From: Westiellopsis prolifica IICB1
Lineage (GTDB): Bacteria > Cyanobacteriota > Cyanobacteriia > Cyanobacteriales > Nostocaceae
Direction: 5' to 3'
Assembly (NCBI RefSeq): GCF_004323185.1
Contig: NZ_NAPS01000001.1
Span: 2,952,602 to 2,988,642, forward strand
DNA length: 36,041 nt
The notes under the pieces are model-generated. The model was not told where the DNA came from. It did not search any database and saw only the letters and a list, made by a program, of their open reading frames with translations. Below, one piece after another: positions 26,493-35,998 of the stretch. How positions within the stretch are numbered: the first letter of the stretch is position 1; every line of letters starts with the position of its first letter. A program made the position numbers and the translations under genes.

Positions 26493-29400
26493 ATGAACTC
26501 GTATTCGTCGTTACGGGGTCAGGGAGAGTCTATTTATACCAATAATGGACGTTTTCCCAATCCAAAGGAGACTATCCTCAAGCTTTTAAGGATAGCTACA
26601 GAAGATACAACCCTCGCATCCGACTTTACTCAAGTTTGGGTTTTGCGTGAGTTTCAATTAGGAGATGATCTGGCTAGTTGTGCGATCGCTAGACAAACAG
26701 AAAATTATGATGATTTTCTTTTCTTAGTTTGCCAAGGTCGAGTCCGGTTACTAGGATTTGATCCAAAATTGGAACGAGAAGTATCTACTCAGTTGCTATT
26801 GGCACAGCAAACCTTCGGAGTAGATTACTTATTCCAGCGTCAGTCTCTATCTTATCGAGCAGTTGCAGCTAGTGATGGTTTGTTAGCATCTATACATGTA
26901 GATGAACTCAAACAATGGTTACAAGAACTACCTAACTTGAAAAGCTATTTGCAAAAAATAACCTGCGATCGCCAAACTTTGATTTTTTTCAAAGTTGCTA
27001 CAGAATTACGTTCGCATACTAGCCATTCTTTGCAACAGCTTTTACCTTACTTGCAACAAACCCAGGTCAGTGCTGGCTCAACCCTTGTGCAAGCAACTCC
27101 CCCCTCAAAGGGACGATTTTGGCTGATGTGTGGAAAAATTGTTAGTCCCACGTCAGAAATTCAGCCACCACAAATAGGAGAAGGCTGGGGATACCCAGAT
27201 CTCACAATCCCAGGCTGGATTGCCGAAACCGATTTGCAAGTATACCACCTACCTCAAGAAATAGCAGAAGGGGAGCGGGGATTGGGGATCGGGGATAAGG
27301 GATCGGGGACAAGGGAGCGGGGACAAGGGGGACACAGGGACGCGGGGATACATAGAAGCGGAGATACACGGAGACGGGGATACACAGATGCGGGAAGAGG
27401 ACGGGAACAGGAGGAAGATCCAGCTGGTGTTTCTGTTGCTGTGTCTTCTGAAAATACCCATGCAGAGATAAATTTTCGGCAACCAAGAAGCCAAGGTTGG
27501 TCAGTAAGTAAACTGTGGCGTCGCTATCCTTTTATTCAACAACAGAGTTCGTCTGATTGTGGTGCTGCGTGTTTGGCGATGATTAGCCTCTATTGGGGTA
27601 AGCGTTTTAGCCTGAACACGTTACGAAACCTCGCACAGACAGACCGCATGGGTGCTTCTCTTTCGGCTTTGGCTGATGCAGCAGAAACTCTGGGTTATGA
27701 TGCTTTACCAGTCAGGGCTTCTTTGGGTAAATTAGAGTTGCAGGCTAACCCTTGGATTGCTCATTGGCAAGGGATTCACTACGTAGTTGTTTGGCGAGTT
27801 AAAGGCGATCGCGTCTTGATTTGTGATCCAGCAATTGGTAAGCGATCGCTTCTGCGTGAAGAGTTTGAAACTCACTGGACAGGATACGCCCTGCTTTTAT
27901 TTCCAACTAAACACTTAAACGCTCAAAAGCACAAAAAAGTTTCCTTGGGAGAATTTTGGCACGCTTTTTGGCATCACCGGGAATTACTTGGTCAAATCGT
28001 TCTAGCTTCAGTGCTGTTAACAGTGTTTGGTCTAGCTGCACCCCTGATTACTCAAGTTGTAGTTGACCAAGTTCTACCATATAAAAGTTCTCTGACTCTG
28101 AATATATTCGCCTTTGGGTTTCTCTTTTTTGGCATCTGGCGGATTATCGTCCAAGCAGTGCGTCAATATCTGCTGGACTATTTTTCCAACCGTATGGATT
28201 TGACGTTACTGGGTGGTTTTATTAGCTATACCCTGCGTTTACCATTGGAGTTTTTTGCATCCCGTCAGCCAGGAGACATTATTAATCGGATTCAAGAAAA
28301 CCGCAAAATTCAAGTATTTTTCACCAAACAAGCAGTTAGCACTACCCTAGATGCGCTGATGGTGGTTGTTTTCTTAGGATTAATGGCGTATTACAACTTA
28401 AGCCTGACTCTGCTCGTCTTGGTTGTGATTCTACCAATTGTGATTGTGACTGCTGCAACTAGTCCACTTCTCAAAAATGCTTCGCGAGAACTCTATCAAA
28501 AATCGGCGGTGCAGTATTCCACAATCAGAGAAATTATTACTGGTGTCACCACTGTGAAAACAACTGCTGCTGAACGTCCGATGCGTTGGCGATGGGAGGA
28601 AAGTTTTACCGACACCGTCCAAACAAGATTTCGGGGTCAAAAACTAGCTAATAATTTACAGCTAGCAACTAGTTTGATTAATCATCTGGGGATCACGTTT
28701 TTACTATGGTATGGGGCAACCTTGGTCATAGGCAACCAAATGTCAATTGGTCAATTTGTTGCTTTTAATATGCTTATTGGCAGTACGATCAATCCTGTTT
28801 TAGCACTGGTGAAGTTGTGGGATGAATTGCAAGAAGTATTGATTTGTGCTGAACGTTTAGATGATGTTCTAACTACCCAACCAGAAGAACATAGCGAAAA
28901 ACCACAAATGGCGTTACCTCAAGTTCGGGGTGATATCCAGTTTGAACGAGTTTGTTTTCGTTACAATGCCAATGCGGAACAGGATACCTTGCACAATATT
29001 TCTTTTCACATCAAAGCAGGGCAAACTGTAGGAATTGTTGGTAATCGTGGTGCTGGGAAAAGTACCTTAGTTAATTTACTGGGTGGTTTATATCGTCCCA
29101 GCAGCGGATGTATTTTAATTGATGGTCACGATATTGCTGATGTTTCTCCCCAATCCTTGCGTAGTCAGTTAGGGGTAATATCGCAGGATATTTTTCTATT
29201 TGCTGGCAGCATTTTAGAAAATATCACAATGTTTAATTCTGAGATTTCACCAGAAGAAGCGATCGCCGTCGCAAAAGTTGTAGAAGCACACAGCTTTATC
29301 CAAGCACTACCTTTGGGTTACGACACCCGGATTGGTGAGGGAGGAATGATGCTAACTGGTGAGATGCGCCAAAAGATTGCGATCGCCCGCGCCTTAATCA

Positions 29401-29672
29401 AAAATCCACCGATTCTAATTCTAGATGAAGCTACTAGTTGCCTAGATAACGCCTTTAAACACCAATTTTCACAAAATCTCGCTCGCTTCCATCACTCCAG
29501 CAGCATTCCCATTCATCAAGCACGTACCATTTTCTTTGTTTCTAATAATCTTTCTACTATTCGCCATGCTGACCATGTTCTGGTTTTAGACCGAGGTATC
29601 CTTATTGAACAGGGAAATCATCAAGAATTAATGACAATTCAGGGACTTTATTACCATTTAGCTCAAAAATAA
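26493..29672 (+). CDS. hetC: HetC-like C39-peptidase ABC exporter
   Basis: A 1059-residue ABC exporter resembling HetC, needed early in heterocyst differentiation in Anabaena. Order: cyclic-nucleotide-binding-like region (about 20-250); a 50-residue Gly/Arg-rich stretch encoded by G-rich heptamers (257-308); a C39 peptidase with C356 (SSDCGAACLAM), H429 (WQGIHYVVVW) and D445 (CDPAIG); transmembrane segments (about 490-780); and an ATPase domain. Walker A GNRGAGKST (850-858) and Walker B with D978-E979 are intact. The signature reads LTGEM (954-958) where LSGGQ is usual, and the H-loop has N1018 (VSNNLS) in place of His. Such exporters cleave double-glycine leaders; ATPase activity is uncertain here. 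The hetC call rests on domain order, length and the nearby hetP. Confidence 0.88.
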   Translation: MNSYSSLRGQGESIYTNNGRFPNPKETILKLLRIATEDTTLASDFTQVWVLREFQLGDDLASCAIARQTENYDDFLFLVCQGRVRLLGFDPKLEREVSTQLLLAQQTFGVDYLFQRQSLSYRAVAASDGLLASIHVDELKQWLQELPNLKSYLQKITCDRQTLIFFKVATELRSHTSHSLQQLLPYLQQTQVSAGSTLVQATPPSKGRFWLMCGKIVSPTSEIQPPQIGEGWGYPDLTIPGWIAETDLQVYHLPQEIAEGERGLGIGDKGSGTRERGQGGHRDAGIHRSGDTRRRGYTDAGRGREQEEDPAGVSVAVSSENTHAEINFRQPRSQGWSVSKLWRRYPFIQQQSSSDCGAACLAMISLYWGKRFSLNTLRNLAQTDRMGASLSALADAAETLGYDALPVRASLGKLELQANPWIAHWQGIHYVVVWRVKGDRVLICDPAIGKRSLLREEFETHWTGYALLLFPTKHLNAQKHKKVSLGEFWHAFWHHRELLGQIVLASVLLTVFGLAAPLITQVVVDQVLPYKSSLTLNIFAFGFLFFGIWRIIVQAVRQYLLDYFSNRMDLTLLGGFISYTLRLPLEFFASRQPGDIINRIQENRKIQVFFTKQAVSTTLDALMVVVFLGLMAYYNLSLTLLVLVVILPIVIVTAATSPLLKNASRELYQKSAVQYSTIREIITGVTTVKTTAAERPMRWRWEESFTDTVQTRFRGQKLANNLQLATSLINHLGITFLLWYGATLVIGNQMSIGQFVAFNMLIGSTINPVLALVKLWDELQEVLICAERLDDVLTTQPEEHSEKPQMALPQVRGDIQFERVCFRYNANAEQDTLHNISFHIKAGQTVGIVGNRGAGKSTLVNLLGGLYRPSSGCILIDGHDIADVSPQSLRSQLGVISQDIFLFAGSILENITMFNSEISPEEAIAVAKVVEAHSFIQALPLGYDTRIGEGGMMLTGEMRQKIAIARALIKNPPILILDEATSCLDNAFKHQFSQNLARFHHSSSIPIHQARTIFFVSNNLSTIRHADHVLVLDRGILIEQGNHQELMTIQGLYYHLAQK
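27262..27412 (+). repeat. G-rich heptamer repeat tract inside hetC
   Basis: About 150 bases of GGGGATT/GGGGATC/GGGGACA-type heptamers, grading into GGAGATACACGG-like units, lie in frame within hetC between the N-terminal and C39 domains. They encode Gly-, Arg- and Asp-rich low complexity. The same heptamers occur in intergenic tracts at 20155-20185 and 36002-36041. Confidence 0.9.
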
Positions 29673-30204: not shown

Positions 30205-30221
30205 GAGGGGCGAAACCCCTA
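30205..30221. promoter_or_regulatory. candidate HetR-binding inverted repeat
   Basis: GAGGGGCGAAACCCCTA is an inverted repeat (AGGGG/CCCCT) with the same arms and spacing as the HetR operator reported upstream of hetP in Anabaena PCC 7120 (GAGGGG-N5-CCCCTC, from memory). A TATAAT lies 35 bp downstream. Position upstream of hlyD-hetP strengthens the call. Confidence 0.6.
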
Positions 30222-30255
30222 CTGTATTTAACACTAGTGGACAAAATCTGAGTTG

Positions 30256-30261
30256 TATAAT
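30256..30261 (+). promoter_or_regulatory. candidate -10 box of the hlyD-hetP promoter
   Basis: TATAAT lies 35 bp after the putative HetR operator. No matching -35 hexamer is present at 17 bp, which fits an activator-dependent promoter. The start of transcription would be near 30268. Confidence 0.4.
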
Positions 30262-30655
30262 AATTATTTAAATAGGAAAGCATATTAACTACATTGAACG
30301 AAAAAAATGAAAAATCGGCAGATGACATTTATGGGAAAAAATAGTATAAATACGAATGTTGCCCTTGAACATCAAGAATGAATATTGTTTCATTGCTCTT
30401 GTAGATGAATAGCAGTGTTACTTAATAAACTTCTAATTTTTGGTGTAAATAACTACATAAAAAAACCAGGGGAAAGTAATTAAATTAGGAGTGAGCCTAA
30501 TATTTAAGAGGGCAAAACTGCATCTACTAAGAGCCGAACGGAGACTTATTTCATACCAATCAAAAAAGATGACCCAAGGTAAATTTTTGCCTCAGTCATT
30601 ACCTTATCAAACCTAAAACTCATACATAGTCAGGTTTCCGATTTTAGGTCAGCTC

Positions 30656-31534
30656 ATGGACAGAATCATCAGGTTAAATGCAGTCGAAGCCTCAAGCCAA
30701 TCAGGATGTTTAGAAATTAACTTACAGGACGTGCATCCCTGTTACGCTTTAACTCCTGAAATGGCATCAATCTACGGGGGTAGTGTCGCTTCACCAGAAG
30801 CGGTTTTATCAAAACTACCTAGAAATATCCAAACCGCTACAACCAAAACTTTCCAGACAGGAATTACAAGTACAAGTAATTACTCTAGATCTTTGCAAAA
30901 AGTATTAGAACAGCAGCCTTCTATTGTTCCTCACCTAATTTTGTTAGGCGGTCTAGCTTTTTTTGCAACTGTATTCACTTGGGCTTGTACTGGAAAAATA
31001 CAACAAGTCACTCAAGTTCAAGGAAAGTTTGCACTATCACAACAGCTTGCTCAACCTCAACCACCGCGAAAATCTCTTTATGAACCTGTAGATGGGGTTG
31101 TGTCCTCTTTAAATAACCCTAGTGGTGAGGAAGTTAAACCCAAGCAAATCATCGCTGAAATTACTCCAACCGATGCATCTCCAGTTTTATTGACTATACA
31201 ACCCTCCCAAAAAACAGCCTTTGTTGATCGAGGAGATTTAGTAGAAATCAAGCTCAATGTTGACTCCCAACCCCTAGAACTTGACAAGGCTGGTCAAAGC
31301 GATCGAAATCACAACATTCTCTCAGGAAAGGTTGTATCAGTCTCCAGCGATGCTCAAACAGATAAGAAATTAGGTTGGGTTCATCACTTACAAATAGCCT
31401 TGGATGGCAATAATCCAACCATCAAACTCACGGATGGACAAGTAGTTACAGCCAAAATCATTCACAATCGCCGTGTTGCAGATCTGTTCCTTAGACCAAT
31501 CAAGGAATTGCACAACAGCGAAAGCGATTTCTAA
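30656..31534 (+). CDS. short HlyD-like membrane fusion protein
   Basis: A 292-residue HlyD-family protein. It has a cytoplasmic N-terminus of about 90 residues and one membrane segment (LILLGGLAFFATVFTWAC, about 95-112). A periplasmic part follows with a biotinyl-lipoyl-like half-motif (LYEPVDGVVSSLNNPSGEEVKPKQ) and a beta-barrel-like region ending IIHNRRVADLFLRPIKEL. HlyD proteins are usually 400-480 residues and carry a long coiled-coil hairpin between the lipoyl halves. Here lipoyl leads directly into the barrel, so the hairpin that reaches a TolC-like outer-membrane channel is missing. It probably partners the HetC-like exporter encoded upstream. It lies 69 bp before hetP on the same strand, likely one transcript. 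ATG start at 30656 with AGG upstream. Confidence 0.8.
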   Translation: MDRIIRLNAVEASSQSGCLEINLQDVHPCYALTPEMASIYGGSVASPEAVLSKLPRNIQTATTKTFQTGITSTSNYSRSLQKVLEQQPSIVPHLILLGGLAFFATVFTWACTGKIQQVTQVQGKFALSQQLAQPQPPRKSLYEPVDGVVSSLNNPSGEEVKPKQIIAEITPTDASPVLLTIQPSQKTAFVDRGDLVEIKLNVDSQPLELDKAGQSDRNHNILSGKVVSVSSDAQTDKKLGWVHHLQIALDGNNPTIKLTDGQVVTAKIIHNRRVADLFLRPIKELHNSESDF

Positions 31535-31603
31535 ATTTTGATTGGGTTACTCTTCACTACAGCAACTAACACACTTATTGACTTTATCTAGGACAACAAC
31601 ACC

Positions 31604-32074
31604 ATGAACCAAAATATCTCTAGCGCTACTAGCAACTTCGAGAAAACTCTTAACCCAGAACAATTTGATCAGTTAGTTGAAGCGATTCTCGCAGGTAAGT
31701 ATTCTTGGGCTTGTGTTTTGATACTGCGTTTTGCTGGCTACAATCCTTTGCATTACATTCCTTACCGCACCTACAACCGATTGATCAAAGAAAATTCACA
31801 ACTCAAAAGAGTTAACCAACAGCGCAACGACAATCTCAAAGTTGCTAAACTACCCTCTGAGAAAAAATCTGATAGCAATCCTCCACAAAGTTGCTTAAGC
31901 AAAATTAAGGATCTTGCCTATCTGGAGGTAGTTGGTAAACAAAAAAGAGAAATTCGTGGTGGTCATCAAGATCAGTGGCTAGCAACTCAAGTTCACGAAT
32001 ATGAATCAATTCAAGCGGAACTCAGACCAGATAAGACTCAAGATTTATCATTCAAATACTGTGAAGCTAACTAA
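31604..32074 (+). CDS. hetP: heterocyst differentiation protein HetP
   Basis: A 156-residue HetP-family protein. HetP acts after HetR to commit cells to heterocyst formation in Anabaena; its biochemical activity is not established. The conserved core is [20 protein letters not shown] followed by [20 protein letters not shown] and TYNRLIKEN (residues 17-65). The C-terminal two-thirds is charged and variable, as in homologues. Length is close to the Anabaena protein. ATG start at 31604 with AGGA about 9 nt upstream. It follows the hlyD-like gene closely and lies downstream of hetC. The candidate HetR operator at 30205 would control it through a long shared transcript. Confidence 0.93.
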
Positions 32075-34219: not shown

Positions 34220-35998
34220 ATGAAACATCAGGGTTTTCCTATTCAACAAAAAAATATTCGCTCTGTTGTTGGTAAAAACCTTTGCACTACTATGCGAGTG
34301 CCTATAACACTCACTACTTTGTTTTTACTATCTAGTGGTTCTCTGCTTTTGCCTGTTGTGGTAAACGCTGATACTACTCAAATAAATAATCAGAATACAA
34401 CTCAAACAGGAAATCAGAATACAACTCAAATAGAAATTCAAAACACAACTCAAACAGGAAATCAGAATACAACCCAAACAGGAAATCAGAATACAACTCA
34501 AGGAACACCAGTTCCGGTCACAGGAAACATTGTTTACGTTAATCCTACCAATGGTTCAGATAGCGCTGGTGCTGGTACATCACAAGCACAGCCCTATAAA
34601 ACTATTACCTATGCTCTGAGTCAAGCCCAATCAGGTACAACTGTTCAATTAGCACCTGGTACATATAACAAAGAAAGTGGAGAAGTCTTTCCACTTACAA
34701 TTAAGCAAGGTGTTACCTTACGAGGCGACCAAAATACCAGAGGTCAAGGGGTAGTGATTGTCGGTAGTGGAAAGTATGTCAGTCCGACATTTGCCAGTCA
34801 AAATGTGACTATTAAGACTGAAAACAATAGCACAATTTCAGGAGTTACAGTTACCAACCCAGATAGTCGTGGTACTGCTGTATGGGTAGAATCAACTAAT
34901 CCCACAATTACCAGTAGCGTATTTACTAATAGCGCCAGAGATGGCATTTTTGTCACGGGTAAAGGTACTCCCACCATTGAAAACAACATCTTTGTCAAAA
35001 ACACAGGTAACGGAATTTCTGTAGCTAAAACTGCTGCGGGAGTCATTCGGAATAACGTGTTTGAAGACACTGGTTTTGGCTTGGCGATTGGTGGTACTTC
35101 TACACCTTTAGTAGAAGGAAACCAGATTATCGGCAACCAAGACGGTATTTACATTAACGACACAGCCAAACCAATCCTGCGTAAAAATATTATTCAGGGT
35201 AATAAACGGGATGGTGTGGTAGCAACTATCAATGCTGCACCCGATCTGGGTACAAGCAACAGCCCTGGTGGTAATTTGATTCGTAGTAATACTCGCTATG
35301 ATCTCAACAACGCCACCAAAACTATTAAAATTTTGGCTGTTGGTAACGATATTGATACCAAGAAAATCGCTGGTTCAGTTGAATTTGTTGCTTCTAGTGT
35401 TGTAGTAGCTGGCAATTTCAAAGATGTCACAGCTACTTATTGGGCAAAACCCTACATCGAAGCTTTAGCAGCTAAGAATATTATTGCCGGTTTCCCTGAT
35501 GGAACTTTTAAACCCAATGATCCTGTAACACGCGCTCAATTTGCTGCAATAGTTACTAAAGCCTTTGCTCAAACTCAACCGAAACGTGAAGCTACTAACT
35601 TCAACGATGTAAATAGTAAATTCTGGGCTTATGATGCCATCAGAAATGCGTATAGATTCGGTTTTGTCTCTGGTTATCCCGATCGCACTTTTAAACCACA
35701 ACAACAAATTCCGCGAGTACAGGCGCTTGTCTCCTTATCCAGTGGCTTGAATTTAACTGCAAATAACCAAAATGTGCTTTCCTTCTACTCAGATGCAGCC
35801 CAAATTCCTAGCTATGCTACTAATCAAGTAGCAGCAGCAACTGTCAAAGGGTTAGTAGTCAATTATCCAAACGCTAAACAACTAAATCCCAACCGTGAAG
35901 CAACTAGGGCAGAAGTAGCAGCCTTTGTTTACCAAGCATTGGTCAACACCGGACAAGTTCAGGCTGTTTCCTCACCATATTTGGTGACAGTGCAGTAG
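34220..35998 (+). CDS. secreted beta-helix (DUF1565) protein with three C-terminal SLH domains
   Basis: A 592-residue surface protein. The N-terminus has a basic start and a hydrophobic segment (ITLTTLFLLSSGSLLLPVVV) with likely cleavage near NADTT. A Gln/Asn/Thr repeat of about five units of GNQNTTQT follows (about 55-95), encoded by 24-bp repeats. Residues about 104-345 form a DUF1565/parallel beta-helix domain (IVYVNPTNGSD, PYKTITYALSQA, GVTLRGD, then NNIF/NNVF-type coils). Three SLH motifs follow, starting near 400 (FKDVTATYWAKPYIEALAAK), 461 (FNDVNSKFWAYDAI) and 521 (FYSDAAQIPSYA); these usually bind wall polymers. The C-terminal position of the SLH block differs from cyanobacterial SLH-porins. 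The ATG at 34220 was chosen because it opens the signal peptide. A polysaccharide-related role is inferred only. Confidence 0.88.
   Translation: MKHQGFPIQQKNIRSVVGKNLCTTMRVPITLTTLFLLSSGSLLLPVVVNADTTQINNQNTTQTGNQNTTQIEIQNTTQTGNQNTTQTGNQNTTQGTPVPVTGNIVYVNPTNGSDSAGAGTSQAQPYKTITYALSQAQSGTTVQLAPGTYNKESGEVFPLTIKQGVTLRGDQNTRGQGVVIVGSGKYVSPTFASQNVTIKTENNSTISGVTVTNPDSRGTAVWVESTNPTITSSVFTNSARDGIFVTGKGTPTIENNIFVKNTGNGISVAKTAAGVIRNNVFEDTGFGLAIGGTSTPLVEGNQIIGNQDGIYINDTAKPILRKNIIQGNKRDGVVATINAAPDLGTSNSPGGNLIRSNTRYDLNNATKTIKILAVGNDIDTKKIAGSVEFVASSVVVAGNFKDVTATYWAKPYIEALAAKNIIAGFPDGTFKPNDPVTRAQFAAIVTKAFAQTQPKREATNFNDVNSKFWAYDAIRNAYRFGFVSGYPDRTFKPQQQIPRVQALVSLSSGLNLTANNQNVLSFYSDAAQIPSYATNQVAAATVKGLVVNYPNAKQLNPNREATRAEVAAFVYQALVNTGQVQAVSSPYLVTVQ

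Follow-up and report, generated by a model that had tools for sequence, protein, structure and literature searches.

A conserved putative HetR operator upstream of a shortened hlyD and hetP in Westiellopsis prolifica

Does HetR, the master regulator of heterocysts, switch on a membrane fusion protein homologue together with the commitment gene hetP, and would such shared control couple secretion to commitment? The question is raised by a 36,041-nt stretch of the genome of the nitrogen-fixing cyanobacterium Westiellopsis prolifica IICB1 (contig NZ_NAPS01000001.1, positions 2,952,602 to 2,988,642, forward strand; hereafter the window), in which hetC, an inverted repeat, a short hlyD and hetP follow one another in this order on the forward strand. 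The initial annotation had picked out the repeat, a TATAAT at 30256, a short HlyD-like open reading frame and hetP 69 bp further on, and direct reading found all of them in place, the hlyD–hetP gap occupying 31535–31603 (69 nt).

26493–29672, forward strand: hetC, 1059 aa, with cNMP-like domain, C39 peptidase and ABC exporter (Pfam)
30205–30221, no strand assigned: putative HetR operator GAGGGGCGAAACCCCTA, recognized by its GGGGN5CCCC form
30256–30261, forward strand: TATAAT, the hexamer of the initial annotation, mostly CACAAT in relatives
30656–31534, forward strand: hlyD, 292 aa, membrane fusion protein homologue without the hairpin region (Pfam HlyD_3)
31604–32074, forward strand: hetP, 156 aa (NCBIfam HetP_family NF037966, 122.4 bits, cut-off 45; dN/dS 0.05–0.16)

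The C39, ABC membrane and ATPase domains of the window HetC all score above their Pfam cut-offs, and the cNMP-like N-terminal match lies just below its own (25.3 bits, cut-off 27.5). The gene is 87–89% identical to hetC of three genomes of the same genus, and in the HetC tree the nearest neighbours of the host are Pelatocladus and Fischerella (Hapalosiphonaceae). Between the cNMP-like and C39 domains, 27270–27400 forms a G-rich, in-frame repeat stretch. Elsewhere in the window, 34220–35998 encodes an SLH-domain protein that matches DUF1565/beta-helix models; its translation shows an NTTQTGNQ repeat at the N terminus.

Comparison drew on 80 named hetP loci, the top-ranking ones of 343, and on a combined set of 89. 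Twelve hetC–hlyD–hetP loci (L092–L103) served as a paralogue/outgroup set. The operator-bearing clade is called heterocyst-type from the names of its organisms.

The inverted repeat as a probable HetR site

The repeat at 30205–30221 encloses the core GGGN5CCC. In PCC 7120, according to PMC4192349, HetR binds GAGGGGTCTAACCCCTC upstream of hetP and GGGN5CCC is required. The resemblance to that site claimed by the initial annotation agrees with the published form: both repeats belong to the same class and lie between hetC and hetP, whereas the window has the spacer CGAAA in place of TCTAA and an HlyD-like gene between the operator and hetP. In Nostoc parmelioides (L149), for which no hlyD was found, the sequence is GAGGGGTCTAACCCCTC itself, its 17-bp operator core identical to that of PCC 7120. 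HetR is encoded in the host genome (HetR_C, 160.5 bits, above cut-off).

All 80 named loci, and 88 of the 89 combined, carry GGGGN5CCCC no more than 2 kb upstream of hetP; a lack of conservation in close relatives, which would have spoken against the initial annotation, was thus not observed. Conservation extends into the spacer, with A at position 8 in 87 of 88 sites and T (77) or C (11) at position 4, and into the flanks, where T, G and A/G occur in 78, 78 and 86 of the 88 loci. None of the paralogue/outgroup loci L092–L103 carries GGGGN5CCCC in the 2.6 kb searched upstream of hetP; the looser GGGN5CCC occurs in five of the 12, without operator-type flanks. Because the repeat is conserved at hetP loci and absent from these 12, its reading as a HetR site is strongly supported by comparison.

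The sole locus without the operator, L084 (genome G011), retains islands I1, I2 and I3, described below, and a 258-aa hlyD. This tells against a strict unit model, as such a unit can exist without an operator. The HetC of L084 sits on a long branch of the HetC tree. Also against that model, hetC is detected upstream in 61 of the 89 loci, so that not every operator–hetP locus is shown to adjoin hetC.

Taken by itself, the pattern is unremarkable: a scan of the window allowing up to two mismatches gave two rows, both for the 30205–30221 site, with 4.4 expected. The 7.31-Mb genome holds 24 exact matches to GAGGGGN5CCCCT, of which 17 have the spacer TGTCA and one TGACA. Seven of these 18 were read (six loci, L003 and L005–L009) and all seven lie within one dispersed repeat; the remaining six rows of matches correspond to four distinct sites, among them the operator. 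The operator as a copy of the dispersed repeat was rejected, the seven copies read having different flanks and TGTCA or TGACA spacers.

Two side observations concern other sites of this kind. The dispersed repeat carries GAGGGGTGTCACCCCT (17 in the genome plus the one TGACA form), and such HetR-site-like copies might act as decoys. A further full HetR-like site, GAGGGGTTAAACCCCTC, lies at about 1243–1261 of L001, between phosphofructokinase-like and PAS/sensor-like open reading frames (names read from their translations).

An inverted repeat downstream of hetC could also be a terminator of hetC transcription, and the present one scores as terminator-like (5-bp stem, loop of 5), two such sites being found against 1.8 in shuffles; at least five T follow within 10 nt in 32 of 88 loci. 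The mean, by contrast, is 3.9 T of 10, and the repeat lies 500–599 nt beyond hetC in 43 of the 60 loci with a hetC end. A terminator reading also has to contend with the near-invariant A of the spacer, with the use of a sequence of the same form as a HetR site in PCC 7120 (PMC4192349, as excerpted) and with the lack of the repeat at all 12 paralogue/outgroup loci. We consider it very improbable.

Conserved elements between the operator and hlyD

Alignment of the leaders identified several islands of conservation downstream of the operator.

30322–30350, forward strand: promoter-like element ATGACA-N17-TATAAA (within island I1, 30320–30358), put forward on spacing and column conservation
30443–30456, forward strand: NtcA-like site GTGTAAATAACTAC (GTN10AC), a pattern match
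30514–30535, forward strand: island I2, AAAACTGCATCTACTAAGAGCC, single copy in the genome
30646–30700, forward strand: island I3, about 55 bp, the hlyD ribosome site and first 15 codons, recognized by conservation

The TATAAT that the initial annotation had offered as a promoter is not a conserved −10: the hexamer aligned to it reads CACAAT in 37 of 88 loci and TATAAT in 8. The candidate promoter element begins 66 bp downstream of it. For I1, 17 nt separate the best-scoring hexamers in 75 of 88 loci, and the distance from the first G of the operator to the start of the pair is 114–118 nt in 74 of 88. The hexamer score is weak (58% of shuffles pass, and a consensus promoter scan omits I1); it is spacing and column conservation that carry the promoter case. 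The same scan returned eight promoter-like matches against 8.0 in shuffles, and between hlyD and hetP (69 bp) it picked up neither a terminator-like nor a promoter-like match.

Two features of this region count against HetR control of a single unit. The start predicted for the promoter-like element is some 145 bp downstream of the operator, a long reach for a simple activator, and the nearer CACAAT/TATAAT may be the real target. In addition, one of the eight promoter-like matches, of the chance-level class, falls inside hlyD (31387–31414) and could allow separate transcription of hetP.

Within bounded stretches, the NtcA-like patterns GTAN8TAC and GTN10AC occur in 35 and 52 of 88 loci, respectively, against shuffled rates of 1.5% and 12%; the label of 30443–30456 follows the NtcA consensus. 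At least 16 of the 21 bases of island I2 (AAAACTGCATCTACCAAGAGC) are matched in 72 of 89 loci, and the spacing of I2 from I1 is 189–197 nt in 63 of 88 loci, both islands being clear inside bounded stretches. Several candidate explanations of these islands were rejected. I2 is not a short open reading frame, as neither frame nor start is retained across the 88 loci; a structured leader RNA from I1 to I2 has 0 predicted pairs over 57 sequences; and a dispersed repeat or shared motif does not account for I2 or I3, each being single-copy in the genome at up to three mismatches.

An old hlyD, shortened and repeatedly eroded

The window HlyD matches HlyD_3 at 24.0 bits (cut-off 22.2), which indicates HlyD-type lipoyl/barrel sequence. 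It fails the type I model TIGR01843 (type_I_hlyD), with 43.1 bits against a cut-off of 208.65 and a match to positions 270–413 only, whereas the full-length relative P0001 reaches 247.2 bits. Along the profile it covers positions 1–134 and 399–548; the hairpin region, 135–398, is missing, and the protein has 292 aa against 459–639 aa in full-length forms. A profile of the short forms matches the HlyD structures PDB 8dck_C and 7sgr_H over the membrane-helix and C-terminal lipoyl/barrel part. Two features of the N-terminal half were placed on the DNA.

30926–30991, forward strand: predicted transmembrane helix, HlyD residues 91–112 (AlphaFold, low confidence, mean pLDDT 53.7)
30758–30781, forward strand: codons of EMASIYGG, a double-glycine-leader-like motif in the N-terminal tail (consensus as given in the excerpt of PMC3140520)

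The coiled-coil hairpin of type I HlyD docks the outer-membrane channel. Since the window HlyD is without the part that would do so, secretion to the outside by this protein is not likely.

The order hetC–hlyD–hetP is an old arrangement, because full-length HlyD is found between hetC-like genes and hetP both in the outgroup/paralogue loci and across the class. All 12 loci L092–L103 combine a full-length HlyD (459–639 aa) with HetP, and 10 of them show a hetC-like end; a search of 145 genomes of the class supplied 30 HlyD loci, in 18 of which HetP comes next, and 12 of these 18 have a HetC-like end in the 1.5-kb upstream flank. In the HetC tree of 57 loci, the nine with full-length HlyD are split from the other 48 by a branch with SH-aLRT 100.

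Within the operator clade HlyD is reduced to 412 aa in F. muscicola PCC 7414, 310 aa in F. thermalis and 292–293 aa in the window's group, and further erosion leads to remnants or to no hlyD found. Among the 48 clade loci in the tree, the frame from the I3 start is at least 200 aa long in 23, 90–179 aa in 11 and 41–83 aa in six, I3 being below threshold in the other eight; an HlyD-profile match is present in 20/23, 6/11, 2/6 and 0/8 of these classes. As the matches are incomplete within length classes, frame length is no proof of HlyD content. One of the eight loci without I3, L170, shows a broken copy, and the other seven fall in three places on the tree. The hlyD states need 12 changes on the HetC tree, against a mean of 30.5 when shuffled. 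In comparative terms, hlyD is an ancestral member in the course of being lost and not an addition.

Is the remaining gene then a passenger? With an HlyD-profile match left in 39 of 89 loci and the operator in 88, the operator may effectively control hetP only, hlyD being a decaying piece of the leader. For the window and its three closest relatives (five pairs), dN/dS is 0.28–0.46 for hlyD, some 3–8 times that of hetP (0.05–0.14), and 0.21–0.25 for hetC. These hlyD values are nevertheless well below 1, the frame is open in all four genomes of the genus, and the start region is the best conserved part of the gene. Per site, synonymous changes exceed non-synonymous ones in hlyD in six of six pairs (Fisher p from 4e-6 to 0.016, the pairs not being independent). 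Selection on hlyD in this genus is relaxed but present. We regard the passenger explanation as possible, at less than even weight. Control of hlyD shared with hetP is likely, and the short HlyD of the window's genus probably partners HetC in the membrane or periplasm, no longer bridging to the outer membrane.

The start of hlyD, island I3, behaves differently from the rest of the gene. At least 36 of its 55 bases are matched in 57 of 89 loci, shuffled regions reaching 23–29, and in none of the 12 full-length-HlyD loci L092–L103 (best scores 25–28). Synonymous choices are near-fixed (AGG 47/48, GCA 48/48, AAT 50/51, Ile ATC 50/55 and 51/56), while, in those genomes, each invariant residue of HetP except Trp is encoded by two to six different codons, some two-codon ones being near-fixed likewise (CAT 55/57). 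Within the genus, codons 1–17 of hlyD hold zero synonymous differences against 0.10–0.14 per site elsewhere, a comparison over 17 codons only. I3 is kept in the six loci with frames of just 41–83 aa. It is missing from many Nostoc/Anabaena loci that have short leaders and keep hetP, and in L170 and L175, both below the threshold and outside the 57, the copies are broken by indels. A role at the level of translation or of a small RNA seems the most likely reason for this conservation.

In a more radical version, the protein product of the hlyD frame is of secondary importance: the frame would serve chiefly as a nucleotide-level leader (I3, with I2) governing how the hetP message is translated or how stable it is, perhaps by being a small-RNA target or a translated leader. 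It draws on the near-frozen codons set against the variable ones of most invariant HetP residues, on the survival of I3 where hlyD is almost gone, on the synonymous silence within the genus and on the small RNA NsiR1, which in the excerpt of PMC9045159 acts on another member of the hetP family, at its start region. The near-fixed two-codon HetP residues weigh against it, as do the many loci that keep hetP without I3 and the purifying selection on hlyD beyond I3 in the window's genus. Moreover, no conserved RNA structure was predicted around I3 (alifold 0 kcal/mol, 55 sequences) or at I1–I2, and Rfam gave no match above cut-off, the one hit reaching 20.5 bits where the gathering score is 54. 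On balance this version is doubtful.

Regulation, export and relation to known systems

Comparison supports the regulatory reading well and the coupling to an exporter in part. We think it probable that the repeat is a HetR operator driving one hlyD–hetP unit in an old export operon, and that hlyD has been eroding since. The proposal of the initial annotation, that HetR switches on a membrane fusion protein together with hetP, survives in its regulatory half, given a conserved repeat upstream of both genes, a gap free of terminator or promoter matches and an encoded HetR; its other half has to be revised, as an hlyD without the hairpin region is not a full membrane fusion protein. The suggestion that secretion acts with HetP in commitment fares worse: an outward export step tied to commitment is probably not a general feature, because the hairpin (positions 135–398) is missing and hlyD decays repeatedly.

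The history could have run as follows. The ancestral hetC–hlyD–hetP would have been a type I/C39 export operon with full-length HlyD. In the ancestor of the clade, to judge from their distribution, a HetR operator, the promoter-like element and the NtcA-like site would have arisen in the hetC–hlyD gap, which would have placed hlyD and hetP under developmental control. As HetR builds up in a differentiating cell, it would occupy GGGGN5CCCC and switch on transcription from 30322–30350, and the transcript would run through a leader of about 300 nt, hlyD and hetP. Since then hlyD has lost its hairpin region and has been eroding lineage by lineage, and in Anabaena and Nostoc sensu stricto the leader is joined directly to hetP; the short HlyD of the window's genus is still under selection, as a probable HetC partner without an outer-membrane bridge.

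Parts of this picture have been published: the HetR site at hetP (PMC4192349) and clusters of C39 exporter, HlyD and HetP (PMC3140520), both as excerpted. The locus shares with the group I/II bacteriocin clusters a C39 exporter with a CAP_ED-type N-terminus, HlyD, and HetP with KIxDLxYLEx10GG (PMC3140520); in contrast, the HetR operator and the shortened HlyD are absent from the published descriptions in the parts seen, and dedication to heterocyst development would be a further difference. In the excerpt of PMC4558948, each Subsection V genome has one HetP-type precursor, located within a group I cluster, and the window-type locus of Fischerella-type genomes may already be listed there. A full-text search for hetC and hlyD as whole words gave no match, most subscription papers lying outside its scope, and a HetR operator before hlyD is not described in the portions seen of the literature matching hetP, hlyD and heterocyst.

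Like the window gene, HetC of Nostoc PCC 7120, studied as a PCAT, is a C39 peptidase ABC exporter adjoining hetP (PMC10986499, as excerpted). That paper reports no membrane-fusion gene near hetC in PCC 7120, in agreement with the initial annotation, which had hetP following hetC there without hlyD, and from this absence it argues for periplasmic export by HetC; the window, by comparison, would represent a half-way state.

The double-glycine motifs touch on possible substrates. [IVL]xGG occurs in the N-terminal tail of HetP-linked HlyDs in 10 of 12 cases (L092–L103) and in 6 of 18 class-wide (L200–L229), one locus being in both sets, and in none of 16 and none of 12 HlyDs not adjoining hetP, with one protein and one locus counted twice and a few starts uncertain. 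YGG as a general feature of HetP-linked HlyDs was rejected on the class-wide 6/18. The [IVL]xGG tail resembles a C39 double-glycine leader. In HetP, KIxDLxYLEx10GG, proposed as a cleavage motif in the excerpt of PMC3140520, is complete in 46 of 81 proteins and [IV][RH]GG is present in 58 of 81; other HetPs have decayed forms (RGR, RGS, RAG), and several outgroup HetPs have a similar GG.

A further-reaching interpretation, which we judge unlikely as a whole, is that of a peptide-export operon captured by development: HetR would control hlyD–hetP, HetC, after loss of the outer-membrane hairpin of HlyD, would deliver into the intercellular periplasm, the opening codons of hlyD would persist, even where the protein has gone, as nucleotide-level control of the hetP message, and ExxIYGG of HlyD and x10GG of HetP would be double-glycine signals readable by the C39 domain of HetC. 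If this were true, the HlyD tail and HetP would be two candidate substrates or docking sites for HetC.

The mechanism of HetC, its exported substrate and the destination are named as open questions in PMC10986499. Living intermediates, from the full HetC–HlyD–HetP set through a hairpin-less HlyD to loci in which none is found, fit the idea of periplasmic export, and this graded hlyD series supplies strains for testing the partner of HetC. The near-frozen start of hlyD, in turn, points to an unrecognised layer of control on the commitment gene hetP.
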